A DNA stretch of 64,000 nucleotides from a virus: IMG/VR virus record IMGVR_UViG_3300032235_000623, positions 1 through 64,000 of that record. One strand, given 5' to 3'. A program made the position numbers and the translations under genes. The notes under the pieces were generated by a model. The model had not been told where the DNA came from and ran no database searches. It saw nothing but the letters and a program-made list of their open reading frames with translations. This document shows, piece by piece, positions 12,628 to 57,026 of this stretch (position 1 is the first letter of the stretch; each line of letters starts with the position of its first letter).

Positions 12628-12878
12628 CAGAAAAAACAAGGTGGGAAAAGTATTTAGAAAAGCAAAAGCAAAAAAATGGAAGCAGTGATGTAAAGCCATG
12701 GGATCTGATAAATCCACATACTGAATATACAGATAGAGAAACTTCTGACGCAAGGTATGAGATTTGTAAAATTTGCCCTGAGCTTTTTGATCTAACAAAG
12801 CAATGTAAAAAATGTGGATGTTTTATGGCCCTTAAAACTAAAATGAAAGAGGCTTCCTGCCCTATTGGTAAATGGTAA
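12624..12878 (+). CDS. Small cysteine-rich protein, DUF6171-like
   Basis: This 84-residue protein's C-terminal half carries the cysteine pattern CKIC, then CKKCGC, then SCPIGKW, typical of small phage and bacterial DUF6171-like zinc or metal-binding proteins. Six cysteines probably bind one or two metal ions. It is coupled to both neighbours: four-base overlap upstream and TAATG overlap with the glycosyltransferase. The function is unknown; a partner role for the adjacent glycosyltransferase is only a contextual guess. Confidence 0.75.
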   Translation: MTEKTRWEKYLEKQKQKNGSSDVKPWDLINPHTEYTDRETSDARYEICKICPELFDLTKQCKKCGCFMALKTKMKEASCPIGKW

Positions 12879-13780
12879 TGGCTAGTATATTTGTTCAAAT
12901 TCCAGCGTACCACGACTTAGAGTTGTCCAGAACAATTAGAGATTGTTTAGAAAAAAGTTCAGGTCTTCATACCATAAACTTTGGGGTTCATTTAACTTAT
13001 TTTGAAAATAGCGATATTGAAATTCCTAAATTAGATAATGTAAGATTTAGTACGAGCCCTGCCCCAGAGAATATCGGCGTTGGTATGGCAAGGTACCTAG
13101 CAAACGAGTTCTACGACGGGGAAGACTATTACTTGCAGATAGATTCACATATGAAGTTTAGAGAGTCTTGGGATGAAATTTTAGTTAATAATTACATACA
13201 GTATAAATCTATGGGAGCTAACCCAGTTATATCTTGCTACCCTGGCGCATATGAGTATGAAGATTTAGTTCCAAAGATTCTAAATACAGATGCCCATATT
13301 CCTTATACTGACTTTATTCAAGAGTTGAGCTTTATGGGCAACTATGTTCCACACCAAAGAGCAGTCGGAAATTTTTCAAACAATGTTTTTTCTAGATCAG
13401 TTTCTGCTGCTTCAGTATTTGGAAGTGGAGAAATTGCCCTCATAAAACCAAACAAAAAAATGTTTTTTTGGGGTGAGGAGATTCTTATGGCATTGAGGTT
13501 TTATACACACGGCTTTGATATCATGCTGCCAAAAACTCAATGCCTGTATCATCTATACTACGATCCTGCAAAAGGCTATCAAAATTTGAGAAGGCAGGTA
13601 GCAGAAGATTTTCCAGAACAGTCATCAAAGCTTGAAATTGCTTCTCAGAAGGAGCTTGAAAGAATTATAATAAATAAAGCAATTGGCAACCAGGAGCTGG
13701 GTTCAAAAAGAACGCTAGAAGAATTCCAGTCTTTTGCAGGCATTAATTTTATTGACAAAAAGATTATGCCAGTGCTATAA
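12878..13780 (+). CDS. GT60-family polypeptide GlcNAc-transferase-like glycosyltransferase
   Basis: This 300-residue GT-A glycosyltransferase belongs to the GlcNAc family (PF11397/GT60). Residues about 85-95 give YYLQIDSHMKF, the DSH form of the metal-binding DxD motif. FFWGEEI near residue 196, the following LRFYTHGFD and the late YHLYY are family hallmarks. Characterised GT60 enzymes move GlcNAc from UDP-GlcNAc onto hydroxyproline of Skp1 or onto threonine in trypanosome mucins. I chose ATG 12878 because it overlaps the preceding stop (TAATG). It lies just downstream of a tail fibre with long threonine tracts, so that fibre is an attractive but unproven substrate. DNA or host glycans are other possible targets. 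Confidence 0.85.
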   Translation: MASIFVQIPAYHDLELSRTIRDCLEKSSGLHTINFGVHLTYFENSDIEIPKLDNVRFSTSPAPENIGVGMARYLANEFYDGEDYYLQIDSHMKFRESWDEILVNNYIQYKSMGANPVISCYPGAYEYEDLVPKILNTDAHIPYTDFIQELSFMGNYVPHQRAVGNFSNNVFSRSVSAASVFGSGEIALIKPNKKMFFWGEEILMALRFYTHGFDIMLPKTQCLYHLYYDPAKGYQNLRRQVAEDFPEQSSKLEIASQKELERIIINKAIGNQELGSKRTLEEFQSFAGINFIDKKIMPVL

Positions 13781-14978: not shown

Positions 14979-14980
14979 TA

Positions 14981-15008: not shown

Positions 15009-15022
15009 ACGGTTGTAGCATC

Positions 15023-15047: not shown

Positions 15048-15062
15048 AATATAAGGAATTTA

Positions 15063-27863: not shown

Positions 27864-28003
27864 AACTGTATCAAAGTAAAGATTGGCTACGCAGAAGATA
27901 TACATTACAGCGAAAAACTGTTACAGAAATAGCAGCAGAGTGTGGGGTTTCTGCAATGACAATACAAAGATATTTAGAAAAATTTGGATTAATTAGAAAA
28001 TGA
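27860..28003 (+). CDS. Small helix-turn-helix DNA-binding protein
   Basis: This 47-residue protein contains a single HTH: KTVTEIAAECGVSAMTIQRY, like sigma-region-4 or Hin-type recognition helices. It is joined to RuvC (ATGA) and to the next gene by overlapping starts. It may bind DNA in regulation or packaging; the length allows only one domain. Confidence 0.75.
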   Translation: MKLYQSKDWLRRRYTLQRKTVTEIAAECGVSAMTIQRYLEKFGLIRK

Positions 28004-28924: not shown

Positions 28925-28949
28925 TTTTTTAGTCAACTAGGAATATACT
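28921..28949 (+). promoter_or_regulatory. Promoter for the terminase operon
   Basis: TTGATT (28921-28926), 17 bases, TATACT (28944-28949). It lies at the end of the preceding gene and eight bases before the ATG at 28958, so this start is also nearly leaderless. Confidence 0.6.
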
Positions 28950-28957
28950 ATAACTAT

Positions 28958-31271: not shown

Positions 31272-31519
31272 GTATATATCAAGATAAAGCAAAAGAGTGC
31301 AAATGCTGTGGAAAGCATGTGCCTCTTCCAACAGTTTTAAAAAGTTTTAATGGGATTACAGTTTGTCCAACAACCTTTGAAAATATTGTTGAGTATAAAA
31401 AGATATGGGATTCAATAGGTTCAAGACCGCCAGGTAGCATAAGAAAACATTTTTCTGAATATGTACAGCAAATTGTTGAGTCGATTGATACAGGAGGGGT
31501 AGAAGATGGCAGAATATGA
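31268..31519 (+). CDS. Small cysteine-containing protein
   Basis: This 83-residue protein has one CKCCGKHVPLP motif and a single later Cys, followed by helices (ENIVEYKKIWDSIG, HFSEYVQQIVE). Similar small zinc-knuckle proteins follow terminase genes in some actinophages. It is coupled to both neighbours by overlapping starts. Confidence 0.65.
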   Translation: MSIYQDKAKECKCCGKHVPLPTVLKSFNGITVCPTTFENIVEYKKIWDSIGSRPPGSIRKHFSEYVQQIVESIDTGGVEDGRI

Positions 31520-32543
31520 AATTAATGAAGAAGAAGTAAAAGAAGTAAGTGATCAATTTGATGAAACATTATTCCAGGCCATACTAGATAAATCCAGTAA
31601 CTCTAATTATGACTACAATGATGAAACTTTAAGATATATATATACAAACACTCTTGAAGAATCAGGTAAGAATACAAATACTCCATATGGCTTAGTTTAT
31701 GATTTTAATGAGAACGGATACAGATCAAATAGCTTTAAGGCTGGAACGGACATGCTCGTTACTGGTTGCTCATTTACCTTTGGATCTGGAATACCAACAG
31801 AATTACGTTGGGGTGACATACTATCAAAAAACTTAAATTTATCCTATTCCAATATGGCGATGCCTGGCAGTAGTGTAACTAGACAAGTTAGAGATATTTT
31901 TGCTTACTTTAAAGAATTTGGGCACCCAAAATATATATTTGCAATGTTTCCAGTTTTTAACAGAATGGAAATAATTTCAAACCCAAAGTATTTGATACCT
32001 GGTGCCTGGGAAAGATCTATAAAGAGAAAGAAAAAGTATAAAGCTTTAAGTACCGTGGATTTATATAGGCAAACATGTAATGTCAACATGGCACCTAGAG
32101 AACAAAAATTTTTAACTCAACCGTTAATCTTTGAGGATATCATGCCTTCAGAAATACCACAGTTCTATTCAAGCCTGCATGTATCAATGTTGCAACAGTA
32201 CTGCGACCTTGCTGGGATAAAGTTAATTTGGTCTACGTGGCATGATCCACAGAATAAAGTACTCAATTTAGTAAATCAAGAATATCCAGACACCTACAGG
32301 GGCATGGTAGACACTAATCCAGGTGGGTGGTCATTTAATAAAAAAACCAATGAGTCTGAATATAGAGAAAATAACGTTTTAATAAATTGTCATGAAGATT
32401 ACAAAATAATATCTGAAGACATGTTTCATACGGCAAGAGATATAGAATTTGGTATTGAGTGGGCACATTGGGGCACACATAGACATCTACATGTTGCTGA
32501 AGCATTCGAAAAATATTTTAAGGAAAACATACAAAATGATTAA
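31506..32543 (+). CDS. SGNH/GDSL-like hydrolase (paralogue A)
   Basis: This 345-residue protein has TGCSFTFGSGI near 81-91 with the catalytic-type Ser, and a closing EWAHWGTHRHLH near 318 that resembles the catalytic His block of SGNH esterases. Similarity to the gene at 34433 is visible in the NGYRSNSF / FGFRCEDF strand, in SNMAMPGSSVT / YNVGKAGLT, and in LIWSTWHDP / LIWSSWHHP. Such enzymes remove acyl groups from sugars or lipids, so an envelope or glycan role is possible, but substrate is unknown. The last bases overlap a tiny ORF. Confidence 0.75.
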   Translation: MAEYEINEEEVKEVSDQFDETLFQAILDKSSNSNYDYNDETLRYIYTNTLEESGKNTNTPYGLVYDFNENGYRSNSFKAGTDMLVTGCSFTFGSGIPTELRWGDILSKNLNLSYSNMAMPGSSVTRQVRDIFAYFKEFGHPKYIFAMFPVFNRMEIISNPKYLIPGAWERSIKRKKKYKALSTVDLYRQTCNVNMAPREQKFLTQPLIFEDIMPSEIPQFYSSLHVSMLQQYCDLAGIKLIWSTWHDPQNKVLNLVNQEYPDTYRGMVDTNPGGWSFNKKTNESEYRENNVLINCHEDYKIISEDMFHTARDIEFGIEWAHWGTHRHLHVAEAFEKYFKENIQND

Positions 32544-32628
32544 AGATATACATAAATACATATATGTTTTTTATCAAAAGCTATTAAAGAAAAAAAGGGA
32601 TAAAAAGAAAACAGATTACACCTACTAG
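32536..32628 (+). CDS. Tiny lysine-rich protein after SGNH A
   Basis: This 30-residue ORF overlaps the SGNH stop by eight bases and has net charge near +8. It ends DYTY. A second ORF of the same kind (lysine-rich, ending RYTY) follows the other SGNH gene at 35241, which argues for function. It may bind nucleic acid or membranes, or serve as a coupling peptide. Confidence 0.5.
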   Translation: MIKDIHKYIYVFYQKLLKKKRDKKKTDYTY

Positions 32629-32633
32629 TGCTA

Positions 32634-32662
32634 TTGACTATATTGTATGTTAATTATATACT
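32634..32662 (+). promoter_or_regulatory. Promoter for tRNA-Met
   Basis: TTGACT (32634-32639), 17 bases, TATACT (32657-32662). Transcription would start near 32669, five bases before the mature 5' end of the tRNA. Confidence 0.75.
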
Positions 32663-32673
32663 ATTGACTACTA

Positions 32674-32747
32674 GCACCAGTAGCTTAGTTGGTCAGAGCC
32701 CCGAACTCATAATTCGGTAGTCGTAGGTTCAAGTCCTACCTGGTGTA
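32674..32747 (+). tRNA. tRNA-Met(CAT)
   Basis: Acceptor stem GCACCAG / CTGGTGT with discriminator A, D arm, anticodon stem CCGAA / TTCGG around the loop CTCATAA (anticodon CAT) and a normal TTCAAGT T loop. CCA is not encoded. It stands alone between an SGNH gene and the next ORF. From sequence alone initiator, elongator and Ile-decoding (lysidine) roles cannot be separated. Confidence 0.9.
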
Positions 32748-32760
32748 CAAGGGAGAATAT

Positions 32761-33078
32761 ATGGAAGAAGAAGAGTATATGGAAAAACTGAGGCACTATA
32801 TAGAAATAGGTGCTATCAGAGAAGCTGGCATTGATCAAAATGGAGAGATAATATTTGAGATTGATGAAGAGCATACTAAAGAGTTAGCCCCAGAATTATG
32901 GGAAGCTCATATGGAGTACGTAGATGAAGCCTTTCTTGATATGTATAAAGATGGTTTAGTGGATATAGAATATGATGAAGAGCTAAATGCTACTGTTCAC
33001 TTTACTAAAGAGGGTTACGAGTTAGCTGCAGAAAAGGGCTTGATTCCAATAAATATGGATGACATACCAAATAACTAA
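32761..33078 (+). CDS. Hypothetical acidic protein
   Basis: This 105-residue, strongly acidic protein starts behind AAGGGAGAATAT just after the tRNA. Acidic helices predominate (MEEEEYMEKLRHYIEIG, ELWEAHMEYVDEAFLDMYKDG) and the protein could mimic DNA. No family known. Confidence 0.65.
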   Translation: MEEEEYMEKLRHYIEIGAIREAGIDQNGEIIFEIDEEHTKELAPELWEAHMEYVDEAFLDMYKDGLVDIEYDEELNATVHFTKEGYELAAEKGLIPINMDDIPNN

Positions 33079-33079
33079 A

Positions 33080-33478
33080 ATGAATTTTGATGATGAAGTT
33101 TTCCAAGAGCGTAGATTTTTATTTCAAAATATAGCCTCTGTTTTACCAGATAATCCTTGGGTTATTAAAGCTACTGAAAAAATGAAAACTTATTCAAAAG
33201 ATGAATATTCTATTATGCTAAAAGAAGCATATGAATTTCAAGATGTATTTGATAGAGCAGTTCAATTAAATATCTCTGCAAAAACAGAAGAAGCACATGA
33301 GCTTTTTGTTTTATTCATTAAGCATATAAGATGGTTTTTTGAAATAGATAAAGAGTCTTATGACGAGCTACTAGAGCTTTGTAGTCCAAATATGAATCAA
33401 TTTCTTATTGTAAATAAATCATACTCTGATTTATTATTTGATATACTTAATGAGTATAGACTGGAAGTAGGAGTTTAA
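33080..33478 (+). CDS. Hypothetical protein
   Basis: This 132-residue protein starts MNFDDEVFQERRF one base after the preceding stop. An earlier ATG (33059) overlaps it in frame. The sequence is helical and acidic. The stop overlaps the oxidoreductase ATG (TAATG), so it probably belongs to the island operon. Function unknown. Confidence 0.6.
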   Translation: MNFDDEVFQERRFLFQNIASVLPDNPWVIKATEKMKTYSKDEYSIMLKEAYEFQDVFDRAVQLNISAKTEEAHELFVLFIKHIRWFFEIDKESYDELLELCSPNMNQFLIVNKSYSDLLFDILNEYRLEVGV

Positions 33479-34443
33479 TGAAGGCAATCGTAGTAAAATC
33501 ATTTGGCGGTCCAGAGGTTATGGAGTATGTCGATTATCGAGATCCAACACCTGTAAAAAATCAAGTTTTGGTAGATACAAGAATGATAGGCGTCAACTAT
33601 GCAGATACCTATCAAACAGAGAATAGCTATTTGGTACAGTCTTTGCCACCAGTCATCCCTGGCATAGAGGCATCATTTATGATAGATGGTGATTTATTTG
33701 TTGGGCACACTTCAAGCGGTGCATATGCAGAAAAAATTCTTGTTAATAGAGATAGAATGTTTAAGGTGCCAGATGGTGTCAGTGAGCAGGAAGCACTCTC
33801 TGTAGTATGTCAGGGAACTACTGCATATGGAATAGTAAATGATATATGCAATATTAAAGATGGAGATTTGGTTTTAGTAAATGGAGCTTCAAGTGCAGTT
33901 GGCATGATACTAATTCAGCTATGCAAACTTTATGGCGCTACAGTCATAGGTGTTACTGGAAGTGAAAAGAAGATAGATTTTGTAAAAGACTTAGGTGCTG
34001 ACTTCGTATGCATTGATAGCATGTCTGAAATAAAAAAAATTACTGATTCAATTGGGAAAAAGCCAAAATTTATTTTAGAGTCTTACGGCGGTAAGCATTT
34101 CATGCAATACTATAGCATGCTAGATACTGCTGGTCATATATGTTCGTACGGTGCATCCTCTAGAGAAGGCTTGCCACCAATGCATATACGTGATCTTTTA
34201 AAGGATACCAAGATAGTTTCTGGATTCTGGGGAACTAAAATTTTTGCAGACTCAGAAAAATTATCTACTGCGGTTAACGATTTGTTTGATTTGATTAAAA
34301 ATAAAAAAATAAAAATTGTTATTGGAGATACAATGTATCTAAGCAATGCAAAGGAAATGCATGAAAAAATTAGAAACAGAGATACAGTTGGAAAGCTTAT
34401 TTTAATAAACGATATGAATGAAGCTTTAAAAAATGAAGTTTAG
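33478..34443 (+). CDS. Quinone oxidoreductase-like medium-chain dehydrogenase
   Basis: This 321-residue zinc-independent MDR/QOR enzyme has an N-terminal GroES-like part (KAIVVKSFGGPEVMEYVD, PVIPGIEASFMI) and a Rossmann fold with NGASSAVGMILIQLCK near 138 for NADPH. Cys residues for structural zinc are absent. It probably reduces an enoyl or quinone-type substrate using NADPH. It is coupled upstream and overlaps the second SGNH gene by 11 bases, within an island of SGNH, carbamoyltransferase and oxygenase genes. Confidence 0.85.
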   Translation: MKAIVVKSFGGPEVMEYVDYRDPTPVKNQVLVDTRMIGVNYADTYQTENSYLVQSLPPVIPGIEASFMIDGDLFVGHTSSGAYAEKILVNRDRMFKVPDGVSEQEALSVVCQGTTAYGIVNDICNIKDGDLVLVNGASSAVGMILIQLCKLYGATVIGVTGSEKKIDFVKDLGADFVCIDSMSEIKKITDSIGKKPKFILESYGGKHFMQYYSMLDTAGHICSYGASSREGLPPMHIRDLLKDTKIVSGFWGTKIFADSEKLSTAVNDLFDLIKNKKIKIVIGDTMYLSNAKEMHEKIRNRDTVGKLILINDMNEALKNEV

Positions 34444-35272
34444 CATTAGTAGTAATTTTACTGAAAATAAATATTTTGGTATTTTAAATCCAAATACTGA
34501 AGATTTTCTGATGCCATACGAAAAAGATCTTGGAATTGATCCAGACCACAGCCTAGTTTATAGCTATAATAATTTTGGTTTCAGGTGTGAAGATTTTGTA
34601 AAAAATCATAATGGGTTACATATACTTTTTGCGGGATGCTCTGAGACAGAGGGCGCTGCAAATAAACTAGAGGATACTTGGTCGCATATTTTATATAGCA
34701 AGATAAAAAAATCTGAAGACATGTCTGGCTACTATAACGTAGGTAAAGCTGGACTTACTATATCTGCAATTGTAATGAATATATTTCAATACATAGATGA
34801 TTTTGGATTGCCCGATTGTATTTTTGTGCAGTTTCCAGATCAAACAAGATACGTAACCTGGTCCCAAGAGGATGGGTTTTATCCAAAGTATCAGGTTTTA
34901 GGAGATAATGTAAGTAATATAGAGTGGGATATATTTTTTACCAAACATGACGATCCAAAAGCACTAAATATAAATATACTTTATAATTACCTATTGTTAA
35001 AAAATTTAATTCAGTTTTGTAAAATAAATAATATAAGATTAATCTGGTCTAGCTGGCACCATCCAAGTATTGAAAAATTTAGTTCTGATACCAGTTTGCT
35101 TGATGGCTATATAAACACAAGTACGCTTAATAAAGAGCATTGGGATATTAAAATAAAGGACTTAAAAGCAAGAGATGGATATCATTTTGGGAGAGGCTTT
35201 CATAAAATATGGGCTGACCAGTTCTATAAGGAGTTTTTAAATGATAAAGATCATAAAAAGAATAATAGTTAA
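34433..35272 (+). CDS. SGNH/GDSL-like hydrolase (paralogue B)
   Basis: This 279-residue protein is related to the gene at 31506. The GCSETEG block near 66 carries Ser in the SGNH position, VGKAGLT is the block-II-like turn, and DGYHFGRGFHKIW near 250 carries the candidate catalytic His. The FVQFPDQTRYV strand matches the FAMFPVFNRME strand of the paralogue. It may act on an acylated sugar or peptide. A tiny basic ORF follows, then the carbamoyltransferase. Confidence 0.7.
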   Translation: MKFSISSNFTENKYFGILNPNTEDFLMPYEKDLGIDPDHSLVYSYNNFGFRCEDFVKNHNGLHILFAGCSETEGAANKLEDTWSHILYSKIKKSEDMSGYYNVGKAGLTISAIVMNIFQYIDDFGLPDCIFVQFPDQTRYVTWSQEDGFYPKYQVLGDNVSNIEWDIFFTKHDDPKALNINILYNYLLLKNLIQFCKINNIRLIWSSWHHPSIEKFSSDTSLLDGYINTSTLNKEHWDIKIKDLKARDGYHFGRGFHKIWADQFYKEFLNDKDHKKNNS

Positions 35273-35318
35273 AAGAAAAATAAAACAAATGTTAAAGAAG
35301 AATAGGTATACCTACTAA
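35241..35318 (+). CDS. Tiny lysine-rich protein after SGNH B
   Basis: This 25-residue ORF overlaps the SGNH end by 32 bases. Its stop overlaps the carbamoyltransferase ATG (TAATG). Its sequence is nearly all Lys, Ile and Arg and ends NRYTY, as the ORF after paralogue A ends DYTY. A shared design next to two paralogous genes supports real translation. Confidence 0.5.
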   Translation: MIKIIKRIIVKRKIKQMLKKNRYTY

Positions 35319-36757
35319 TGATTATTTTAGGCATTAATGAAACATCACACGATGCATCAATATCCTTGATAAAGGATGGTGAGATACTATTTGCTGGACA
35401 TGCTGAAAGATACAGTAAAAAAAAGAATGACTGGTATAACAATAATGAAATTTATCTTGATATGCTTAATTATGGAACACCAACCCATATAGCATACTAT
35501 GAGCATCCAAGATTAAAACAATCAAGAATTATGTTGAGAGGCGGTGCTTCAGACTGGAAGCCAAGCATACCATTTGATCTACCAGTTAAATACTTTAGTC
35601 ACCACTATTCTCATGCATGTGCTGGATATTATACAAGTAAATTTAAAGATGCAGTAATTGTTGTTCTTGATGCAATAGGTGAATGGAATACATCAACAAT
35701 ATGGGTAGGCGAAGGCGAAGAAGTTAAATCGGTAAAGAAATTTAATTATCCAACAAGTTTTGGTTTATTCTATTCTGCATTTACTAAGCTACTTGGCTTA
35801 AAGCCAAATGAAGAAGAATATATAATGATGGGGATGGCTGGGTACGGTGATCCAGACAGATACTTTGATAAAGTTAATTCTTATTTTCCATCAATTAGAA
35901 AACAAAAATATAATTTTCATAAAGGAATAAATGACTGGGATATTGAGATAACAGATCAAAATAAATTTGATATTGCAGCAGCAGTACAAAAAGTATATGA
36001 GCATAGACTTTTAGAATTTATGGAGTATGCAAAGATACTTACGGGGAAAACAAATCTTGTATTTATGGGTGGATGTGCATTAAATTGTTCTGCTAACACC
36101 AAACTATGGGATTTGTTTAATAATATTTGGATTATGCCAAATCCAGGAGATGCGGGTAGCTCATTGGGTGCAGCAGCAGCCTTATACGGCTCTCATTTAA
36201 ATTGGGAAGGCCCATATCTAGGCACTAATTTGCAAAGTAATTGGCCTAGACACGAAATACTAAAAGAGCTAAAAGAAAATAAAATTGTAGCGGTTGCGTC
36301 TGGAAGGGCAGAGTACGGTCCAAGAGCACTTGGTAATAGAAGTATATTGGCAGATCCAAGAGATCCTAATATTAAAGATAAGGTAAATCAAATTAAACAA
36401 AGAGAAAAGTTTAGGCCATTTGCCCCAGTTGTTTTAGAGCATTTTGCAAATGAATGGTTTGACATGCCAACAAGATCAACACCATATATGCAATATGCAG
36501 TTAGGTGCAAATATCCAGAAAAAATACCTTCTGTCGTACATGTCGACGGAACTTCAAGAGTCCAGACTGTAAATGAATATGACCACCCAGAACTACACAT
36601 GCTTCTCAGGCAGTGGTATTGGGAAACAGGCGTACCTATTTTATTAAATACTAGCTTAAATATTAAGGGTCAGCCACTCCTTAATGATCAAAATGATATA
36701 ATTGAGTGGCAAAATAGATATAACACTAAAATATACGGAGGAAATAATGTTTTATGA
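35318..36757 (+). CDS. NodU/CmcH-type O-carbamoyltransferase
   Basis: This 479-residue protein opens with the Kae1-like ATP-binding domain GINETSHDASISLIKDG and carries GHAERYSK. Later come GGCALNCSAN near 250 and the C-terminal carbamoyltransferase block RAEYGPRALGNRSILADPR near 330. The enzyme makes carbamoyl-adenylate from carbamoyl phosphate and ATP and transfers the carbamoyl group to a hydroxyl on sugars or antibiotics. Related viral enzymes are known to act on 5-hydroxymethylcytosine. It is somewhat shorter than typical members. Substrate here is unknown; the neighbouring oxygenase could supply a hydroxyl. Confidence 0.88.
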   Translation: MIILGINETSHDASISLIKDGEILFAGHAERYSKKKNDWYNNNEIYLDMLNYGTPTHIAYYEHPRLKQSRIMLRGGASDWKPSIPFDLPVKYFSHHYSHACAGYYTSKFKDAVIVVLDAIGEWNTSTIWVGEGEEVKSVKKFNYPTSFGLFYSAFTKLLGLKPNEEEYIMMGMAGYGDPDRYFDKVNSYFPSIRKQKYNFHKGINDWDIEITDQNKFDIAAAVQKVYEHRLLEFMEYAKILTGKTNLVFMGGCALNCSANTKLWDLFNNIWIMPNPGDAGSSLGAAAALYGSHLNWEGPYLGTNLQSNWPRHEILKELKENKIVAVASGRAEYGPRALGNRSILADPRDPNIKDKVNQIKQREKFRPFAPVVLEHFANEWFDMPTRSTPYMQYAVRCKYPEKIPSVVHVDGTSRVQTVNEYDHPELHMLLRQWYWETGVPILLNTSLNIKGQPLLNDQNDIIEWQNRYNTKIYGGNNVL

Positions 36758-37529
36758 CAACCCAAATGTAGAAAAAGTTGGACACAAAGTTTATGTATAC
36801 AGGAATTTTGTTTCTCCAGAAAAAATGGCAGAGATAAATAAAATTTTAAAAGACATAAATGTTGATGATTTAAGAGTAGATACTTCAGATCACACGATAG
36901 ACTGGTATTACGATAAGTTTACTCAGCCTATTCCAGCTTTGTATGACGTATGGAAGGATTTAAATGATCTACTTCTTCCAGAATACTGTATTCACCCATG
37001 CCTTACCCTACTTAGTACTAAAGAGGGAGAAGAAATGTACGCTCACTCAGATAGTCCAGGAGAAGATATGGAAGACGAGCTTATTGCTTCAGATGTATGG
37101 AACACTTGTTGTGTTATCCACTACGGCGCTATAGTTTATTTTGGAGAATTTGAAGGCGGAGAGGTATACTATCCAAACTTAGATGCAGATGGTAACTTTG
37201 TAGGAAATGAAGAACCATTAAAGGCTGGCAATGAATTTAGAGTAAAGCCTAATGCTGGAGACTTGATAATTCATGGAGCTCATAGCGATACATATCATGG
37301 AGTTAAGAAGATAACATCTGGCGTAAGATATGCTTTCTCAAACTTTGTTTTACCAGTTGAAAAGAATCCAGGAACATTCCCAGTATGTGGTACTCCAGAA
37401 AATGAAGAAAGATGGAATAAGGGTCATGCAGAATGGCTAACACCAATTAATTTTAAATGGCAGCCTTCTGAAAAACTACAAAATGAAATAGACGCTGGAG
37501 TTACTGGCGTAAGATATAGAGATATGTAG
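36747..37529 (+). CDS. 2OG-Fe(II) oxygenase (prolyl-4-hydroxylase-like)
   Basis: This 260-residue dioxygenase has HSD near 98, the later HGV within DTYHGVKKITSGVRY (second His plus the Arg that binds 2-oxoglutarate), and jelly-roll strands between. It would hydroxylate a protein, sugar or small molecule using oxygen and 2-oxoglutarate. I chose ATG 36747 because GGAGGAAATA lies directly upstream. It overlaps the carbamoyltransferase end by 11 bases, suggesting sequential hydroxylation and carbamoylation. Confidence 0.82.
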   Translation: MFYDNPNVEKVGHKVYVYRNFVSPEKMAEINKILKDINVDDLRVDTSDHTIDWYYDKFTQPIPALYDVWKDLNDLLLPEYCIHPCLTLLSTKEGEEMYAHSDSPGEDMEDELIASDVWNTCCVIHYGAIVYFGEFEGGEVYYPNLDADGNFVGNEEPLKAGNEFRVKPNAGDLIIHGAHSDTYHGVKKITSGVRYAFSNFVLPVEKNPGTFPVCGTPENEERWNKGHAEWLTPINFKWQPSEKLQNEIDAGVTGVRYRDM

Positions 37530-47440: not shown

Positions 47441-47914
47441 ATGCAAACATTTCTTCCACACAAAGACTTTTCCGAGACAGCAAAACATTTAGACCGTAAG
47501 CGTTTAATCAAGCAGAGTGTAGAAAACCTTCAGGTACTTAAGTCTCTCTCTGGACACTACGATAAAACTGGTGCTTGGGTAAACCACCCAGCAGTAAAGA
47601 TGTGGCGTGGTCACGAAGACTGGCTATTCTTATATAACGAGGCAATTGTAAGAGAGATTATTCTTAGAGGGTATAAGAATAGCACAAGAGAAACATTTGA
47701 CTCAATCTATCAAGAGAATTTTATTGCTCTTGAGTCTGATTCACCTTGGTGGCTTGGTAATGAGAGCCTCCACTACTCTCATAAGGGTAGATTATACGAA
47801 AAAGATCAAGAATCATATTATTTCTATGCGGAATTTGCTGATTATAAGGAATTAGGATATACTTGCTGCGTGTCCTGCAACTATTACTGGCCTACTCATG
47901 TGGAGAATCTATGA
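47441..47914 (+). CDS. Pyrimidine dimer glycosylase (Pyr_excise)-like protein
   Basis: In this 157-residue protein, the N-terminal TFLPHKDFSETAKHLDRKRL, IKQSVENLQVL and NHPAVKMWRGHEDWL match a family often annotated with pyrimidine-dimer DNA glycosylases (PF03013-like). It would excise UV-damaged bases, useful for a phage in sunlit water. ATG 47441 is chosen over 47435 because it fits the six-base -10 spacing seen elsewhere. Overlaps the thioredoxin start. Glycosylase activity is inferred. Confidence 0.65.
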   Translation: MQTFLPHKDFSETAKHLDRKRLIKQSVENLQVLKSLSGHYDKTGAWVNHPAVKMWRGHEDWLFLYNEAIVREIILRGYKNSTRETFDSIYQENFIALESDSPWWLGNESLHYSHKGRLYEKDQESYYFYAEFADYKELGYTCCVSCNYYWPTHVENL

Positions 47915-48216
47915 TAGTAAACGACGAAAATTTCGATAATACTATCAGTTCACACAGGCTTGTAATGATAGATTTTTGGGCTGAATGGTGCAGACCTTGC
48001 AAAATTTTTAGTCCAATTATTGAAGAAGTCTCAAACGAGACTGGAATATGGCTTGGAAAGATTAACATTGACGATAATCAAATTAAGCCAGCAGAGTACG
48101 AAGTATCTTCTATACCAACAACTATTTTATTTCAAGATGGTGTTCCAGTAAAAAGAATTATAGGCGCAAAGCCAAAGCATGTAATGTTACAGGAGCTTTC
48201 AGAATGGGTGAACTAG
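47911..48216 (+). CDS. trx: Thioredoxin-like protein
   Basis: This 101-residue protein has a thioredoxin fold with active site WCRPC (about residues 26-30; CxxC with Arg in place of the usual Gly), then the cis-Pro SIPTT and a hydrophobic GxxxKR-like strand. It likely reduces disulfides in phage or host proteins, or supports phage ribonucleotide metabolism. ATG 47911 overlaps the preceding stop (ATGA). Confidence 0.85.
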   Translation: MIVNDENFDNTISSHRLVMIDFWAEWCRPCKIFSPIIEEVSNETGIWLGKINIDDNQIKPAEYEVSSIPTTILFQDGVPVKRIIGAKPKHVMLQELSEWVN

Positions 48217-48427: not shown

Positions 48428-49534
48428 ATGAAGTCATTTAATAAAATCGCACTAGCCATGGTTGCAGCCATGGCTATGGGCACAATCGTAGCAACACCTG
48501 CAAGTGCTGCTGTAATGACAGTCGCTGTAACTCTTGATGGAACGGCTAATACAACCGCTTCCTCAGTTTCTACACCTGCTGCATTGCCAGTTCCTGCAGA
48601 CAACTCAGTTGATGCTGCTGACGCACTTAAGTTTGTAGCAACAGTTGACACAGGAACATCAGTTTCTGTAACAGCAACAAATGCAACAATCGTGTCTGCA
48701 CTACACACATCTGCTGCACCAGTCGGAGCATCATCAGGATCATCATCTTTGACAATTGCTACTGGTACAGGAACAACTGCAACATTTTATGTCTACACAA
48801 AGACAACAGCAATTGGTACAGTTGTAGTTACAAACCAGGGAACACAACTTACATACTACGTACAGGGTACTGCTGGCAAGATTAATAACCTTGCTGTTTC
48901 AGCACCAGCAAACGGTGCTGCTGGAACAAAGCAGGATATTACAGTTACTGCAACAGACGTATTCGGAAACAAGGTTTCTGGTAAGTCAATTACAGCAACA
49001 GTATTTGCTTCAACAGCAACACTTGATACAGCAACAGCAACAACTGGTGCTACTCTTTCAGACTTTGGAGTTGCAAAGTTTTCTGCAACACTTCCAACAA
49101 CTGGAACACGATCACTTATTACATTTGCACCAACAAACTCAGGAGATGCAACATCTGCTGATGTAACTGGTTTAACTGCTCGTACTCTTGCACCTTTTGC
49201 AGAGATTGCAGTTCGTGATCTAGTATCAGAACTTGCTGCACAGACAGCTGCTAAGACAGCTGCTGAAAGAGCTCTTGCAGATGCAGTAGCAAAGGCTGCA
49301 TCTGATTCAGCAGCAGCAAAGGCTGCAGCAGAAGCAGCAGCTCTAACAGCTGCAGCAGAAATTGCTAAGCTAAAGGCAGAAGCTGTAACAGCAAAGCTTG
49401 CACACGATGCAGAAATTGCTAAGCTAAAGGCGGATAATGCGGTAGCGATTAAGGCAATCAAGGATGCTTTCAATAAGTTGGCTCGCCAATGGAATGCAAA
49501 GAATCCAAAGTCAAAAGTTACTCTAGTAAAGTAA
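48428..49534 (+). CDS. Secreted Ala-rich protein with Ig-like and coiled-coil regions
   Basis: This 368-residue protein has a signal peptide ending ATPASAA. A Thr/Ala-rich region and an invasin/Big-like immunoglobulin domain (about 150-230, DITVTATDVFGNKVSGKS) follow. The C-terminal part is an almost perfect Ala-rich coiled coil and ends NAKNPKSKVTLVK. Composition (very high Ala and Thr, codons richer in GC) differs from neighbouring phage genes. It resembles abundant surface proteins of freshwater actinobacteria, so host origin is possible. Strong AAGGAGAAAG before ATG. Confidence 0.75.
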   Translation: MKSFNKIALAMVAAMAMGTIVATPASAAVMTVAVTLDGTANTTASSVSTPAALPVPADNSVDAADALKFVATVDTGTSVSVTATNATIVSALHTSAAPVGASSGSSSLTIATGTGTTATFYVYTKTTAIGTVVVTNQGTQLTYYVQGTAGKINNLAVSAPANGAAGTKQDITVTATDVFGNKVSGKSITATVFASTATLDTATATTGATLSDFGVAKFSATLPTTGTRSLITFAPTNSGDATSADVTGLTARTLAPFAEIAVRDLVSELAAQTAAKTAAERALADAVAKAASDSAAAKAAAEAAALTAAAEIAKLKAEAVTAKLAHDAEIAKLKADNAVAIKAIKDAFNKLARQWNAKNPKSKVTLVK

Positions 49535-50934: not shown

Positions 50935-51639
50935 TTGTACATAGTAACTGGATCAGGATCTGGCATAGGTAAATCAGTATATAAAACTTTAAAAGAAACT
51001 GATCCAGTTATTGGTATTGATATTTTGCAATCAGACATTGTTTGTGATCTATCTTACGAAAAAAATATAAAAGAATTAGTATCCGAAATAACAAATTCCA
51101 ATAAAGAAATAAGTGGTGTCATCACATGTGCTGGAGTTGTTGGTGGAGATAGTGTAATATCAACTAATTATTTTGGATCTATCAGACTTGTAGAATACTT
51201 ATATGCCCATTATGGCAAAATAAATGCAATACTAATTGGGTCTATTATATTTACACACACAAAAGTTAATAATGAGTTAATAGATTTATTGCTAGATGGT
51301 AGTGAATCAGATGCAATATATTTTGCAAGGAAGAATAATCTTACAGATACAGAGATATATGCATCCTGCAAGCTAGCCCTTAATTTTTGGGCAAGACGTT
51401 TTATTAAGAATAACCCAAACTCTAGAATAAACGTCATACATCCATCATTAACTAAAACTGGAATGACAGAAAAGTATTTAAAGAGTGAAGTTATAAAAAT
51501 TATTTTTGCTGAAGATATACATAAGGCATATTTGGGCGAGCCAGAAGAAGTATCTGGCTTAGTATGCTATCTAATAAAAAATTCAAAGTTTGTAAATGGA
51601 CAATCTATATTTATAGATGACGGTGTGTACAGTGTGTAA
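50935..51639 (+). CDS. Short-chain dehydrogenase/reductase (SDR)
   Basis: In this 234-residue SDR, TGSGSGIGKS near the start binds NAD(P) and YASCK (about residues 141-145) is the catalytic YxxxK. The C-terminal GQSIFIDDGV is characteristic. Appears to start at TTG 50935 behind AAAAGAGAG. It reduces or oxidises a hydroxyl/keto substrate. It opens a block with a P450, a flavin monooxygenase and a 2OG oxygenase, so it may belong to one pathway. Confidence 0.85.
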   Translation: MYIVTGSGSGIGKSVYKTLKETDPVIGIDILQSDIVCDLSYEKNIKELVSEITNSNKEISGVITCAGVVGGDSVISTNYFGSIRLVEYLYAHYGKINAILIGSIIFTHTKVNNELIDLLLDGSESDAIYFARKNNLTDTEIYASCKLALNFWARRFIKNNPNSRINVIHPSLTKTGMTEKYLKSEVIKIIFAEDIHKAYLGEPEEVSGLVCYLIKNSKFVNGQSIFIDDGVYSV

Positions 51640-51721
51640 GACATGCGGAAACTGCTCTCAAGAGCACAATAAAACAATTGATGATGCAGTAGATAATATC
51701 TTAGATTCGAGTATAATATAA
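51632..51721 (+). CDS. Tiny cysteine-containing ORF
   Basis: This 29-residue ORF starts at GTG 51632, overlapping the SDR end by eight bases. It has CKTCGNC then a helix. Its bases also form the promoter of the next gene. It could be chance. Confidence 0.35.
   Translation: MCKTCGNCSQEHNKTIDDAVDNILDSSII
51712..51717 (+). promoter_or_regulatory. -10 box, leaderless gene
   Basis: TATAAT six bases before ATG 51724. The -35 is weak. Confidence 0.55.
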
Positions 51722-51723
51722 GA

Positions 51724-51957
51724 ATGAAAAGAAAGCTATTAGATGGGTCTGCGGTAGACTCTTTAGAAAGCCCTGTACAGTTAGTTATTCATACTAAGGC
51801 TCCACAAAAATGGAAGATAATAGATATGGAAACTGGCGAAGAGTACATTGGTTCAGAAATATCGCATCCAGTTTTTAGCAAAACATTAAAAAGTAAGGTT
51901 TTAGCTGGTCATATCGGATCGTGGAAAAAAATAAAATTTAGGAATAAAAATGAGTAA
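51724..51957 (+). CDS. Hypothetical beta-rich protein
   Basis: This 77-residue protein has LVIHTKAPQKWKIIDMETGEEYIG-type strands, an SH3-like or OB-like size, and a basic end. Predicted leaderless. It overlaps the next gene by eight bases. No family recognised. Confidence 0.6.
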   Translation: MKRKLLDGSAVDSLESPVQLVIHTKAPQKWKIIDMETGEEYIGSEISHPVFSKTLKSKVLAGHIGSWKKIKFRNKNE

Positions 51958-52081
51958 ATATTCTATTAAAAAAGAACAAAAGTGCTACTACTGCACTGAG
52001 GAAGGTCTTTATTTTGACTATGCTGATTATAGATGTATAAGTGTTTGTAAAAATCATTTAAATATGGAAGCCTCAAGCTAA
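51950..52081 (+). CDS. Small zinc-binding protein
   Basis: This 43-residue protein has CYYC, then a later CISVC and His, giving a possible treble-clef zinc site. Its stop contains the ATG of the P450 gene. It could be an expression partner. Confidence 0.6.
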   Translation: MSKYSIKKEQKCYYCTEEGLYFDYADYRCISVCKNHLNMEASS

Positions 52082-53328
52082 TGTCAATTCAAAATAATTT
52101 AAAAAAAGCTGGTCCAGAATTTCTTTTAAATTTAAAAAAACAAAATGGTGAAGTATTTTGGATACAGGATTATTTATTTGCATTCAATGAAAACTACGTA
52201 AATGAAATTTATGTTAAGCAGTACAACAACTTTACAAAAGCTGGCGGATGGCATAAGATTAAAGAGGGAATAGGATCAGGGTTGCTCACTAGTGAAGAGC
52301 CAAAGCACCTAGTCAATAGAAGAATACTAAACCCTGCATTTCATGTGAATAAGATTAATAAGCATATTGATGAAATGCGTTCAATAATTTCAAAAGAATT
52401 AAGTAATTTACAAAGTCAGAGTGAATTTAATATATCAGATTATTTTTTAAACTTGAGCTATATAGTATTAACTAATACCTTATTTAATGATAAAAACCTA
52501 TCTGAATCAAAAGAATTTAAAGATATATTTTATTCAATTATGAAGAAAACTGTTGATGACGAAGATCCGCACCATGAATCTTTGGAAGAGTATAGGAGCA
52601 GTTTATATAATTTAATATCAAAAGTAGTTTTGGATAGAGTCTCTAACGAAGAACATAATGATGACTTCCTAGACCTATTAATTGAATCATTCAATGATGG
52701 CGAGATGTCATTGCATGAAATAGTGGATGAGATACTCAGTATGCTACTTGCTGGACATGAAACAACGGCTAACGTCGTATCATGGGCAATATGTCATGTG
52801 TCATTAAATCAGGAAATAAAGAATAATATAAAAATAGAATCAGACTTATTTATAAATAAAATAAATACCAATGGAGTTCTTGATTCTTTAAAGGATTTAA
52901 CAAATTCAGAATATGCTATAAAGGAAACATTAAGACTCTATCCTCCAGTCTGGTCTAGCCCAAGGGAGGCAATTAGTGATTGCTATATAGAGGACACCTT
53001 CATTCCAAAGGGAACAAAAATTATATTAAGCTCATATGTTTCCCATAGAGATGAAAAGTATTTTGATGATCCAGAATTATTTATGCCAGATAGATGGGAT
53101 AATAATTTTGAGGACACCCTACCTCAAGGCTCATACTTTCCATTCCATCTTGGTCCAAGAAAGTGTATCGGATATCGTTTTGGAGAAATACAGGCAAAAA
53201 TTACATTACTAGAATTTTTTAAAAACTTTGAGATTGATTTATTGAACGGAATGCCTAAAGGTGTGCCATATGCAACATATAGAATATCTGAAAATTTCTG
53301 TGTTGAATTAAGAAAGAGTGATCAGTGA
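52081..53328 (+). CDS. Cytochrome P450
   Basis: In this 415-residue protein, the I-helix AGHETTANV (about residue 223), KETLRLYPP (ExxR, about 281) and heme-ligand FHLGPRKCIGYRFGE (about 354, axial Cys) are all intact. P450s use oxygen and reducing power to hydroxylate or oxidise substrates. No ferredoxin or reductase is visible nearby, so it would borrow host redox partners. P450s are very rare in phages. It is coupled to the luciferase-like monooxygenase (four-base overlap). Confidence 0.92.
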   Translation: MSIQNNLKKAGPEFLLNLKKQNGEVFWIQDYLFAFNENYVNEIYVKQYNNFTKAGGWHKIKEGIGSGLLTSEEPKHLVNRRILNPAFHVNKINKHIDEMRSIISKELSNLQSQSEFNISDYFLNLSYIVLTNTLFNDKNLSESKEFKDIFYSIMKKTVDDEDPHHESLEEYRSSLYNLISKVVLDRVSNEEHNDDFLDLLIESFNDGEMSLHEIVDEILSMLLAGHETTANVVSWAICHVSLNQEIKNNIKIESDLFINKINTNGVLDSLKDLTNSEYAIKETLRLYPPVWSSPREAISDCYIEDTFIPKGTKIILSSYVSHRDEKYFDDPELFMPDRWDNNFEDTLPQGSYFPFHLGPRKCIGYRFGEIQAKITLLEFFKNFEIDLLNGMPKGVPYATYRISENFCVELRKSDQ

Positions 53329-54113
53329 AGATTCATTACATGACAGACTCAGGAAACGATCTATCTGAGCTATCAAATATCCTAGATGATGCAGGCTACT
53401 ACTCTCTCCTTCTGGTATATCATTCAACAAAACCAGATGCCTGGATTAAATGTGCTAATGCTTTAAATAAAAAACATAAGTTTAAGTACATGATAGCCAT
53501 GAGGCCGTATGCAATTAGCCCAGAGTACTTTTCTATGATGTGCAACGCATTTAATGAGCTGTCTCCAAACAGGATAATGTTTAACATAGTAGCTGGAGAC
53601 TTACATAAAGAAGAGAAAAGCGTAGAGCATGCTTTATTTATCGGCGACCTTATAGAAACATCAGAAAAGAGAGTAAAGTATACTGCTGAATGGATAAAGA
53701 AATTAAAAGAAATTAATAAGATAAGGCCATTCCCAGAGATAGTAATGTCTGGGTTTTCTGATAAAACATTAGAAACTGCTGCAGAGTTTGCGGACTATAA
53801 TTTATGTATGATTGATACATACAAAGAGCATACAGATAGATTTAATAAAAATAAAAATAGAATGGTTTCTGCTCAGATTATAATAAGGGATACGTATGAG
53901 GAAGCAAAAGAGTTTGCTGATAAATATGTGCCAGAAGAGCACAAAAGAAGGTGGACAATTTTTGGAACAGAGTCTGACATTATTAATGAGTTTGAATATC
54001 TTGAGTCTATTGGGGTCACAGACATAATGCTTAGATCGCATAATTCAGATTTAAAGGTTAATTTAACTCACAATTTTGTAAAAAAATATAACTCAAGAGA
54101 AATGGTACAATAA
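53325..54113 (+). CDS. Luciferase-like flavin-dependent monooxygenase
   Basis: This 262-residue TIM-barrel LLM-type flavoprotein has the N-terminal MTDSGNDLSELSNILDDAGYYSLLLVY and FKYMIAMRPYAISPEYF, and later IGVTDIMLRSH. These enzymes use reduced FMN and oxygen to oxidise aldehydes, nitriloacetate or alkanesulfonates, or to N-oxidise amines. Starts at GTG 53325, overlapping the P450 end. Substrate unknown; it probably acts with the P450 and the downstream oxygenase. Confidence 0.78.
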   Translation: MKIHYMTDSGNDLSELSNILDDAGYYSLLLVYHSTKPDAWIKCANALNKKHKFKYMIAMRPYAISPEYFSMMCNAFNELSPNRIMFNIVAGDLHKEEKSVEHALFIGDLIETSEKRVKYTAEWIKKLKEINKIRPFPEIVMSGFSDKTLETAAEFADYNLCMIDTYKEHTDRFNKNKNRMVSAQIIIRDTYEEAKEFADKYVPEEHKRRWTIFGTESDIINEFEYLESIGVTDIMLRSHNSDLKVNLTHNFVKKYNSREMVQ

Positions 54114-54116
54114 GAT

Positions 54117-54797
54117 ATGACTAAAATTTATGCAATAGGTGACTGCCACCTATCAAGAGTGCAGGAACATTATAATCCAAGCGAAAGCGATGTGGATTTT
54201 GTTATATGGGGCAAGGCTGCGAAGAAGATATGGGACATTAATTTTGCAGAGATGCTGACGCTGGACGAGGTATCCTCTGGTAAAGAGCAGCAAAGATTTG
54301 ATGGAGACGGTGTAACGCTATTTAGCCAAATTAAAGATGAAGATATATTGTTCGCATGGTTTGGATATGTTGATATTAGAACATTTTTATCTAAATATAA
54401 CAATGCTGATGAGGTTGCTAAAAGGTATGTAGATCAGCTTAAATCTTATTTTAAAAATTCTTTAATTGTTATTATAGAGCCTCTACCTCAGTTTACTGAA
54501 ATGTTATTAAAGTACGAAGGTATTAGTCCATCATATACATATGAAGAAAGATTGAACCAAAATAAACTCTTTATAGAGTCTTTGCACAAATATGCATCAG
54601 ATGCAGGAATTACACATTTTATAACTCAAGACGATATAAAAAAGGCCATAGGAAGCGATGAGTTAACGCCTGCTATGACTCACACAAAAGCCCCTCACCC
54701 AGTTGATGGCTTGAAGGACGAATATAACCAAAATATATTTTTCTTGTTTGAAAGATATGCCAAAAAAATTATAGAGGAGAACTTTAATGACAACTAA
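54117..54797 (+). CDS. SGNH-hydrolase-like protein
   Basis: This 226-residue protein has GDCHLSRV near the start (GDxx block with C where Ser is usual), LFAWFGYVDIRTF (block III-like), and APHPVDGLKDEYN (His block, Asp-x-x-His-like). It resembles SGNH esterases but the nucleophile position is Cys, so activity is uncertain. Lies in the oxidative island. Confidence 0.6.
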   Translation: MTKIYAIGDCHLSRVQEHYNPSESDVDFVIWGKAAKKIWDINFAEMLTLDEVSSGKEQQRFDGDGVTLFSQIKDEDILFAWFGYVDIRTFLSKYNNADEVAKRYVDQLKSYFKNSLIVIIEPLPQFTEMLLKYEGISPSYTYEERLNQNKLFIESLHKYASDAGITHFITQDDIKKAIGSDELTPAMTHTKAPHPVDGLKDEYNQNIFFLFERYAKKIIEENFNDN

Positions 54798-55338
54798 CCA
54801 CGAAATGGTAACAGATAAAATTGTACAGTTTAATGATGTATTTGAGGACTTGGATGCTGTAGTTTCCAAGGTAGAGTCTGGATCCTGGGAGCACTGGGGT
54901 AGAGCAAATAATGAACGTGTTGGAACATTAAGATGGATCTATAAGATAGAAGGCTATCTTTATAATGAAATTAATTCAGCTGTTACAAAAGCAGCAGACG
55001 AATATTTTGAGAACCAATCTATTAAAAAGAATGAGTATATGTTTTCGAACAGCTCATATCATATTAGAAAATGGGATGCACCAATGAGAGGCATGGAGCC
55101 TCATTCAGACTTTTCAGCAAATGAGGATGGAAGCAGAAGCAACCCCTCATACACCATATGTGGTTATATCACAGAGGATTACGAGGGCGGGCACCTAGAA
55201 TTTCCTAAGCACAACATATCTATTAAGCCAAAAGCTGGATCTATTATAATATTTCCATCTGATGAATGGCACGGAGTTTCTGATGTAATAAGCGGAAATA
55301 GAATGATGTTTAGCTTATTTATACATAAAACCCATTGA
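54787..55338 (+). CDS. 2OG-Fe(II) oxygenase (second copy)
   Basis: This 183-residue protein has HSD near 106, DEWHGVSD near 160 and SGNRMMF (Arg) near 171. This is the H-x-D...H triad plus 2-oxoglutarate Arg of prolyl-hydroxylase-like enzymes. It is shorter than the copy at 36747. It would hydroxylate a small molecule or protein side chain. It overlaps the SGNH gene by 11 bases. Confidence 0.82.
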   Translation: MTTNHEMVTDKIVQFNDVFEDLDAVVSKVESGSWEHWGRANNERVGTLRWIYKIEGYLYNEINSAVTKAADEYFENQSIKKNEYMFSNSSYHIRKWDAPMRGMEPHSDFSANEDGSRSNPSYTICGYITEDYEGGHLEFPKHNISIKPKAGSIIIFPSDEWHGVSDVISGNRMMFSLFIHKTH

Positions 55339-56027: not shown

Positions 56028-56497
56028 TGAAGCGCAAAAGTAGAGAGCAGAATTTCGAATATATGACAAAAAAAGAGATCATATTCGCCTTATATAATCA
56101 AGGCATGTCGTACCGACAAATCAAAGAGCAAACTGGCTTTTCAAAAGGCACCATTTCCTATCATTTGGGCGAAGGGGTCAAAGAGAGGGCAATGGATCGG
56201 CGGAAGCAGGATAGACATAAAATTACCACCTATATCAGAGAAGAAAAGGTGGGCAAGGTATGTATGGACTGCAGAGAAGATTATCCCCATTGGATTCTAG
56301 AATTTGACCATAGACCAGGGGAGGAAAAGAAATTTACCATTGGTACCCATAATATCGCTAGAGACAAATCACTAGATGAAGTTAAAGATGAAATAGCTAA
56401 ATGTGATATCGTATGTGCTAATTGCCATAAGAATAGGACATACTGGAGAAAGCTCAAGAATGGAGTCTATCCAGCAACCAAGGAACTATACGACTAG
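56027..56497 (+). CDS. HNH endonuclease with HTH
   Basis: In this 156-residue protein, residues about 28-50 are a helix-turn-helix (MSYRQIKEQTGFSKGTISYH). The C-terminal half is an HNH nuclease: CMDC, LEFDH, CDIVCANCHKNR. The two Cys pairs structure the zinc, and DH...H...N form the active site. Start GTG 56027, with an in-frame ATG at 56063. Probably a homing-type or packaging-associated endonuclease. Confidence 0.82.
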   Translation: MKRKSREQNFEYMTKKEIIFALYNQGMSYRQIKEQTGFSKGTISYHLGEGVKERAMDRRKQDRHKITTYIREEKVGKVCMDCREDYPHWILEFDHRPGEEKKFTIGTHNIARDKSLDEVKDEIAKCDIVCANCHKNRTYWRKLKNGVYPATKELYD

Positions 56498-56498
56498 G

Positions 56499-57026
56499 AT
56501 GAACTCTTGGCAATATGGGCTTACAGCCCAAGAAGAAGCCTTGTGTGTAGAGGTAGGATATCAGCGTCAAAAGCCATACTTTGGCGATCCTAGCAAAAAC
56601 ATTAATTATGCTGAAGGTGACCTATGGGAGATGTGGCAGCATGTCATATGTGCAGGGTCTGAGCTAGCATTTGCCAGAATGATGGGTAATAAGGAATTTG
56701 TACCTCATGTGAACAAATGGAAGACTGAATTAGATATCCCAGGTGTTGGTGAGATAAGATACTCGTTTAATCCAGATGGTGGACTTAGATTCACAAATAG
56801 GGATAATCCTGATCTCAAATATGTATTATTAATTGACGGGATGGCTATCAAAAATAGGACGGGGAAGAACGAAGAAAGACGAAGTACTCCCTATAAAGCT
56901 ATAGGATGGCTATATGGACATGAATGTATGAAGGATGAATATCTATCTAAATACAATAATAGAACATGGGTTGTACCTCAGAGCAAATTAAAACCTATGC
57001 CTAACCATATTAAACCAGTTGACTAG
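56499..57026 (+). CDS. Conserved hypothetical phage protein
   Basis: This 175-residue protein starts at ATG 56499 just after the HNH stop. It has MNSWQYGLTAQEEALC then GELRYSFN-type beta strands and LLIDGMAIKNRTG near the middle. Codon use matches neighbours. Likely nucleic-acid related given its HNH neighbour, but not identified. Confidence 0.6.
   Translation: MNSWQYGLTAQEEALCVEVGYQRQKPYFGDPSKNINYAEGDLWEMWQHVICAGSELAFARMMGNKEFVPHVNKWKTELDIPGVGEIRYSFNPDGGLRFTNRDNPDLKYVLLIDGMAIKNRTGKNEERRSTPYKAIGWLYGHECMKDEYLSKYNNRTWVVPQSKLKPMPNHIKPVD

Follow-up and report, generated by a model that had tools for sequence, protein, structure and literature searches.

Island II, at positions 50935–55338 of the viral record IMGVR_UViG_3300032235_000623, resolves on sequence comparison into two joined modules rather than one. 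The first comprises a short-chain dehydrogenase/reductase (SDR), a small protein termed o51724 and a cytochrome P450, and the second a luciferase-like oxidoreductase (LLM), an SGNH-fold protein and the 2-oxoglutarate (2OG)-Fe(II) oxygenase 2OG(B). The stretch analysed (the window) covers 64 kb from the start of this 108,849-base record, denoted G000 in full. The identities of the island II genes and the modular structure are secure. It is tentatively proposed, at somewhat below even likelihood, that a swappable module decorates a phage-made surface component, for which a (PPxFFx)n repeat in a fibre-like protein is the leading candidate substrate. Scattered tailoring genes (halogenases, carbamoyltransferases, 2OG oxygenases and rare P450s) have long been known in phages without a pathway or substrate. 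The module, a genomic hot spot and the linkage of the repeat to 2OG genes together raise a testable question, namely whether such phages chemically decorate their own virions. If so, they would be a new source of both phage surface variation and protein-acting oxygenases.

Organisation of island II

An initial annotation had read SDR, P450, LLM, SGNH and 2OG as one oxidative tailoring block. All five open reading frames (ORFs) are present on the plus strand (Table 1), and Pfam confirms the SDR, P450, LLM and 2OG assignments, while the SGNH call holds by fold only. The array is tighter than that annotation stated: P450 and LLM overlap by 4 bases, LLM and SGNH are spaced by 3 bases, and SGNH and 2OG(B) overlap by 11 bases, an arrangement that suggests coupled translation of the four genes. 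Three small ORFs, all overlooked, occupy the interval between SDR and P450: the 77-residue o51724 and two tiny Cys-rich ORFs.

Oxidative tailoring is still the most fitting functional class for these genes, but their grouping as a single five-gene unit is not upheld. The terminase (TerL) of the record is 64% identical to those of Streptomyces phages such as Francob, Gilson and Faust, which places it in an actinophage lineage related to Faust and Gilson, with a presumed actinobacterial host. A sister phage (L125/G021; 109,615 bases) is colinear with the record up to circular permutation, and its proteins are mostly 75–95% identical, the tailoring and fibre-like genes diverging fastest. The corresponding sister slot, bounded by genes that are 84–88% identical, contains SDR (36% identical), o51724 (54%) and P450 (56%), arranged as in the record. 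LLM–SGNH–2OG is absent from this slot, and no LLM is found elsewhere in the sister record. Other phages carry LLM–SGNH–2OG without a P450, and no P450 was found in 20 SGNH/LLM phage records.

LLM is conserved in 11 non-redundant phage loci, of which seven share the order 2OG(A)–LLM–SGNH–2OG(B). 2OG(B) of the record is 40–45% identical to its partner in the module loci, and the gene at 36702–37529 is 42–49% identical to the gene upstream of LLM in the seven loci. In the record, P450 occupies the usual position of 2OG(A), and the 2OG(A) homologue lies in another island (island I), beside a carbamoyltransferase gene. The remaining LLM loci have other neighbours: a carbamoyltransferase and a sulfotransferase-like gene in L099; an FkbM methyltransferase, a sulfotransferase-family protein and a 2OG gene in L103; and apparent tail-fibre genes in L101 and L102. 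In L004 and L011, the module stands beside apparent glycosyltransferase and methyltransferase genes, as judged by eye. The initial annotation had held that absence or scattering of the genes in relatives would speak against a common role; this is half borne out, as the block is split, but conserved sub-modules are kept and there is no random scatter.

Two further ORFs were noted in the module-bearing contig L002. The product of 14195–15058 resembles a WS/DGAT acyltransferase, below the Pfam cut-off, and 15484–16008, which by eye resembles the start of a P450, had no Pfam match and was not counted.

The SDR–o51724–P450 module

The SDR contains the superfamily motifs TGxxxGxG and YxxxK, and its TTG start codon is preceded by a GAGAG Shine-Dalgarno-like stretch. 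The P450 retains the FxxGxRxCxG heme-Cys loop, ExxR and the I-helix AGxET, which are also present in the sister copy. In the record they read AGHETT at 224, ETLR at 282 and FHLGPRKCIG at 355, in agreement with the initial annotation of an intact P450. Between the record and sister P450 genes, dN is 0.37 and dS ~1.7 (saturated, and similar to the terminase dS), so that dN/dS is well below 1 and indicates purifying selection. Models of four families (Fer2, Fer4_15, Flavodoxin_1 and NAD_binding_1) found no ferredoxin, flavodoxin or NAD-reductase domain in the 108,849-base record, in line with the initial annotation, and the P450 would therefore need a host electron donor.

In viral contigs, a single-sequence P450 query recovered nothing, and a query that included the sister recovered the sister alone. 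A P450 from Pseudomonas 'phage' Y1 was considered and rejected, its adenylate kinase-like, RND-pump-like and TetR-like neighbours looking chromosomal. The Y1 entry (OQ572403.1) was deposited as a phage and is marked unverified, and the stretch examined resembles a bacterial chromosome.

Homologues of o51724 occur in many related phages that have no P450; this protein is therefore not P450-specific, and its candidacy as precursor of a ribosomally synthesised and post-translationally modified peptide (RiPP) was rejected. The tiny ORF at 51618–51722 has a counterpart at the matching position of the sister, with CxxCGxC..EHN..IDD.VD conserved; the record has CxxCxxCxxC and the sister only CxxCxxC. 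A function in redox chemistry or zinc binding would be conceivable.

LLM, SGNH and 2OG(B)

LLM scores 40.1 bits against the PF00296 cut-off of 27.9 and adopts the family fold in its predicted model (TM ~0.75). Its nearest relatives by sequence and fold are SsuD, MsuD and SfnG, and the F420 enzyme KvPepI is also a fold match. It lies far outside the SsuD family TIGR03565 (47 bits against a cut-off of 518). Residues Cys54, Arg226 and His228 lie in the SsuD active site; the LLM residues aligned with them are not kept, and the long SsuD insertion is missing. LLM is therefore placed in the luciferase-like family, in which a sulfonate monooxygenase role would be conjectural, and FMNH2 and F420 are both candidate cofactors.

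The SGNH ORF has no match in Pfam, NCBIfam or PHROG. Its AlphaFold model (pLDDT 89.6) matches SGNH esterases and acyltransferases (best E 1.7e-6), which supports the fold, but the Ser-Asp-His triad is altered, with an invariant Cys10 in place of the Ser. In a 29-sequence alignment, Asp9, Cys10 and His11 are invariant, and most members, though not all, have the block V His. The protein is SGNH-like and possibly an acyltransferase. A 2OG cluster accompanies 74 of 80 SGNH loci in other phages, some of which also have clusters of TylF-type methyltransferases and Trp-halogenase-like proteins.

2OG(B) has the HxD..H iron triad and the 2OG-binding Arg of its superfamily. Eight 2OG proteins of the record exceed the Pfam cut-off, and a ninth, at 36702, falls below it. 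Three kinds of oxygen-using enzyme are thus present in island II, as first claimed, and their motifs are intact wherever these can be tested.

2OG(B) also matches Tet_JBP (9.8e-5), and some DNA-modification clusters of phages include carbamoyltransferases; it might be supposed from this that a 2OG oxygenase and carbamoyltransferase hypermodify DNA bases. This is very unlikely. The Tet_JBP score of 22.1 bits is below the cut-off of 34.9, which places 2OG(B) outside the TET/JBP family, and is exceeded by PF13640. Inspection of the ORFs by eye, with no dedicated search, turned up neither a DNA glycosyltransferase nor a thymidylate synthase of the hypermodification type, and we know of no P450 or LLM in DNA hypermodification pathways. 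It is still less probable, to the point of being barely credible, that these are degenerate passenger genes devoid of activity. The loss of SsuD-type residues and of the long insertion from LLM, and the Cys-for-Ser change in SGNH, could be read in that way, but all frames are open, the P450, SDR and 2OG motifs are kept, dN/dS is well below 1 and LLM has 42 invariant residues across 12 phages. A role in defence was also considered and rejected, the sole match being a generic CRISPR-associated 2OG profile.

Table 1. Positions of the island II genes and of related features in the record.
Feature	Position	Strand	Remarks
SDR-family oxidoreductase	50935..51639	+	234 aa; PF13561 1.5e-13; motifs TGSGSGIG, YASCK
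Tiny Cys-rich ORF, MTVCTVCKTCGNCSQEHNKTIDDAVDNILDSSII (or shorter form)	51618..51722	+	Overlaps SDR 3' end; start codon uncertain
o51724, small protein	51724..51957	+	77 aa; PHROG 4098 C-terminal-like; 54% identical in sister
Cys-rich ORF (CYYC...CKNH)	51951..52082	+	43 aa; stop overlaps P450 start; conserved in sister
Cytochrome P450	52081..53328	+	415 aa; PF00067 8.8e-62, 209.8 bits; motifs intact
Compact luciferase-like TIM-barrel oxidoreductase (LLM)	53325..54113	+	262 aa; PF00296 3.7e-10; model pLDDT 87
SGNH-fold protein	54117..54797	+	Cys10 at nucleophile position (GDCH); fold searches; 80 phage loci
2OG-Fe(II) oxygenase 2OG(B)	54787..55338	+	PF13640 5.4e-11; HxD..H..R
GT60-type GlcNAc transferase	12872..13780	+	PF11397 2.4e-35; just downstream of tail-protein gene 8493-12230
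Zinc-type alcohol dehydrogenase/quinone oxidoreductase	33478..34443	+	Island I; PF00107 5.8e-20
NodU/CmcH-type carbamoyltransferase	35318..36757	+	Island I; PF16861 1.3e-54, PF02543 6.6e-41
2OG(A) homologue	36702..37529	+	Island I; PF13640 weak, below cut-off
Fibre-like protein	G000:83686-85047 (outside window)		Fibronectin III domain; ~eleven PPxFFx hexapeptides

A hot spot for tailoring enzymes

Syntenic relatives were collected by scanning viral contigs with the island-flanking gene 56403–57026. The corresponding slot is occupied by a Trp halogenase and two 2OG-like genes in L105, by 2OG-like genes in L109 and L117, and by SGNH and 2OG in L113; no such enzyme is found in six of the ~12 syntenic slots examined (L107, L108, L111, L119, L121 and L124). 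On this comparison, the slot is a hot spot that repeatedly gains tailoring enzymes in this phage group. The initial statement that such a gene set is unusual in any phage therefore stands with a qualification, as this group acquires such enzymes repeatedly and cyanophages have comparable sets (PMC3037559).

It is rather unlikely that the hot spot just collects unrelated accessory genes (morons) that share transcription and form no pathway. The lack of such enzymes in about half of the slots, the separate distribution of the two modules and the lower GC content of SDR and P450 (0.30–0.31, against 0.34–0.37 for LLM–SGNH–2OG) would all fit such a collection, but the module order in seven non-redundant loci and the apparent translational coupling from P450 to 2OG(B) would not.

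Similar islands also occur at 28000–37529 (island I, inside the window) and 69183–71845 (island III, outside it). The island I carbamoyltransferase is 82% identical in the sister and 72% in the LLM phage L099.

A repeat in a fibre-like protein as candidate substrate

The fibre-like protein encoded at 83686–85047 matches the Collagen profile at 1.9e-4, below the cut-off, and five Pfam 2OG genes (86189–91156, outside the window) lie downstream of its gene. In a scan of viral contigs for the repeat, a 2OG gene was found within 4 kb (<=4 kb) of 56 of 71 repeat ORFs, a count drawn from loci that share ancestry and so are not a set of independent events. Among the LLM/P450 phage records, 11 of 15 contain the repeat, and those that lack it are four fragments of 12–52 kb. 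In L002, the gene for a repeat protein with an S74 chaperone domain immediately precedes a PF11397 (GT60-type) gene, after which comes 2OG(A)–LLM–SGNH–2OG(B). GT60 enzymes glycosylate hydroxyproline in Skp1, and genomic linkage makes Pro hydroxylation of the PPxFF repeat by a prolyl 4-hydroxylase-type 2OG oxygenase a candidate role.

The 2OG array downstream of the repeat gene also includes a DUF6065 protein, and this arrangement recurs in many viral contigs.

Possible roles of the module

Module recurrence, the presence of P450 where 2OG(A) usually stands, the variability of the slot, purifying selection on P450, the fast divergence of tailoring and fibre-like genes and the linkage to the repeat argue for surface decoration. 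Island II would then be a variable tailoring locus joining two mobile enzyme modules. We infer that its enzymes are most likely active and act with the carbamoyltransferase, alcohol dehydrogenase and 2OG oxygenase of island I, placing a series of small modifications, in a presumptive order, on a phage-made surface component. The 2OG oxygenases and P450, the latter using host electron carriers, would hydroxylate; LLM would oxidise or reduce with host FMNH2 or F420; Cys-SGNH would add or remove acyl groups; and the carbamoyltransferase would add carbamoyl. As substrate, the collagen-like (PPxFFx)n repeat is the strongest candidate, and GT60 could glycosylate it as well.

Peptides can be substrates of compact LLM enzymes: the F420-dependent relative LxmJ reduces dehydroalanine in a peptide (PMC8498797), and KvPepI is a fold match. 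A fuller version, that of a phage-encoded post-translational pathway, is fairly improbable. Here, 2OG oxygenases, joined in some lineages by P450, LLM, Cys-SGNH, Trp halogenase, carbamoyltransferases and sulfotransferases, would modify Pro and Phe of the repeat, and GT60 would glycosylate it. Exchange of modules between phages would then provide every one of them with a surface chemistry of its own.

Several points weigh against a modified surface repeat. Small molecules or sugars are the usual substrates of the P450, SDR, LLM and carbamoyltransferase families, and the glycosyltransferase and methyltransferase neighbours in L004 and L011 fit a glycan target equally well. Island II lies ~28 kb from the repeat gene in the record. 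The repeat is also found in nine of 13 further records (11 SGNH phages in which no LLM is known and two from the syntenic slot set), and its link to 2OG genes, which comes from one broad phage group, may reflect lineage inheritance.

The same family precedents favour the next most likely, though doubtful, alternative: while infection proceeds, the module would synthesise or modify a small molecule, or else a glycan or lipid of the host surface, as auxiliary metabolism or for superinfection exclusion. The P450 comes closest to models of enzymes that tailor terpenes, cyclodipeptides and RiPPs, but with scores far below their cut-offs; apparent nucleotide-sugar and glycosyltransferase genes adjoin the module in L011, by eye; and the sulfotransferase-like genes of L099 and L103, with the FkbM methyltransferase of L103, point the same way. 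This alternative is opposed by the record itself, among whose ORFs no enzyme that builds a scaffold (non-ribosomal peptide synthetase, polyketide synthase, terpene synthase or carrier protein) was noticed by eye. It is also opposed by short-motif scans of genome contigs, which detect close relatives only and which distant donors could escape: in these, neither LLM nor the two phage P450s had bacterial or other cellular relatives.

Relation to known systems

Phage P450s and cyanophage tailoring genes are already known; the conserved module, the hot spot and the repeat association appear to be new. In the literature searched, which was covered in part, nothing direct was found on a phage P450 with LLM or on phage prolyl hydroxylation of fibres, and no description was found of the 2OG–LLM–SGNH–2OG module, the hot spot or the linkage of repeat and 2OG genes.

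By the usual rule, P450s of one CYP family are at least 40% identical. That of Mycobacterium phage Adler is 21.6% identical to the present P450, which therefore falls outside the known viral (Adler-type) family. The Adler P450 and other viral P450s are treated in PMC9405906, which cites Lamb et al. (2019). The Adler and present P450s are both complete genes in actinobacterial phages (the present host being predicted) without a phage-encoded redox partner; besides their low identity (~22%), they differ in that the present P450 belongs to a conserved SDR–o51724–P450 module joined to LLM–SGNH–2OG.

Cyanophages carry the Trp halogenase gene prnA, a carbamoyltransferase and multiple 2OG-Fe(II) oxygenases (PMC3037559). 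These sporadic sets resemble those described here, including the Trp halogenase in the hot spot of relatives, but the present genes belong to another phage lineage and include a conserved four-gene module, and P450 and LLM are not mentioned in PMC3037559.

LLM resembles the FMNH2-dependent alkanesulfonate and dimethylsulfone monooxygenases SsuD, MsuD and SfnG most closely in sequence and fold, but is ~100 residues shorter, lacks the long insertion and the SsuD signature residues, and has no adjacent flavin reductase gene. In size (~270 aa) and fold it resembles KvPepI and LxmJ, compact F420 hydride transferases of peptide biosynthesis, but is only ~15% identical to them, and the phage cofactor may be FMN or F420. 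In Skp1, a prolyl 4-hydroxylase and then GT60 act in succession; the phage genome likewise combines 2OG-FeII_Oxy_3 proteins with a PF11397 GlcNAc transferase. Unlike the Skp1 system, the phage is not a eukaryote and has many more oxygenases, and the substrate is only a candidate.

Other features of the record

A promoter scan yielded sites no more numerous than in shuffled sequences. Besides the genes in Table 1, island I encodes three proteins that read as SGNH-like, without a Pfam match. In island III, a methyltransferase gene lies at 69183–69938, where the sister has a gene (G021:26107–26835) that reads as a sulfotransferase and has no Pfam match. A subtilase-family protein (PF00082; 46236–47186) with a signal-peptide-like start adjoins a thioredoxin gene (47863–48216) and a gene for a secreted-looking protein (48428–49534).

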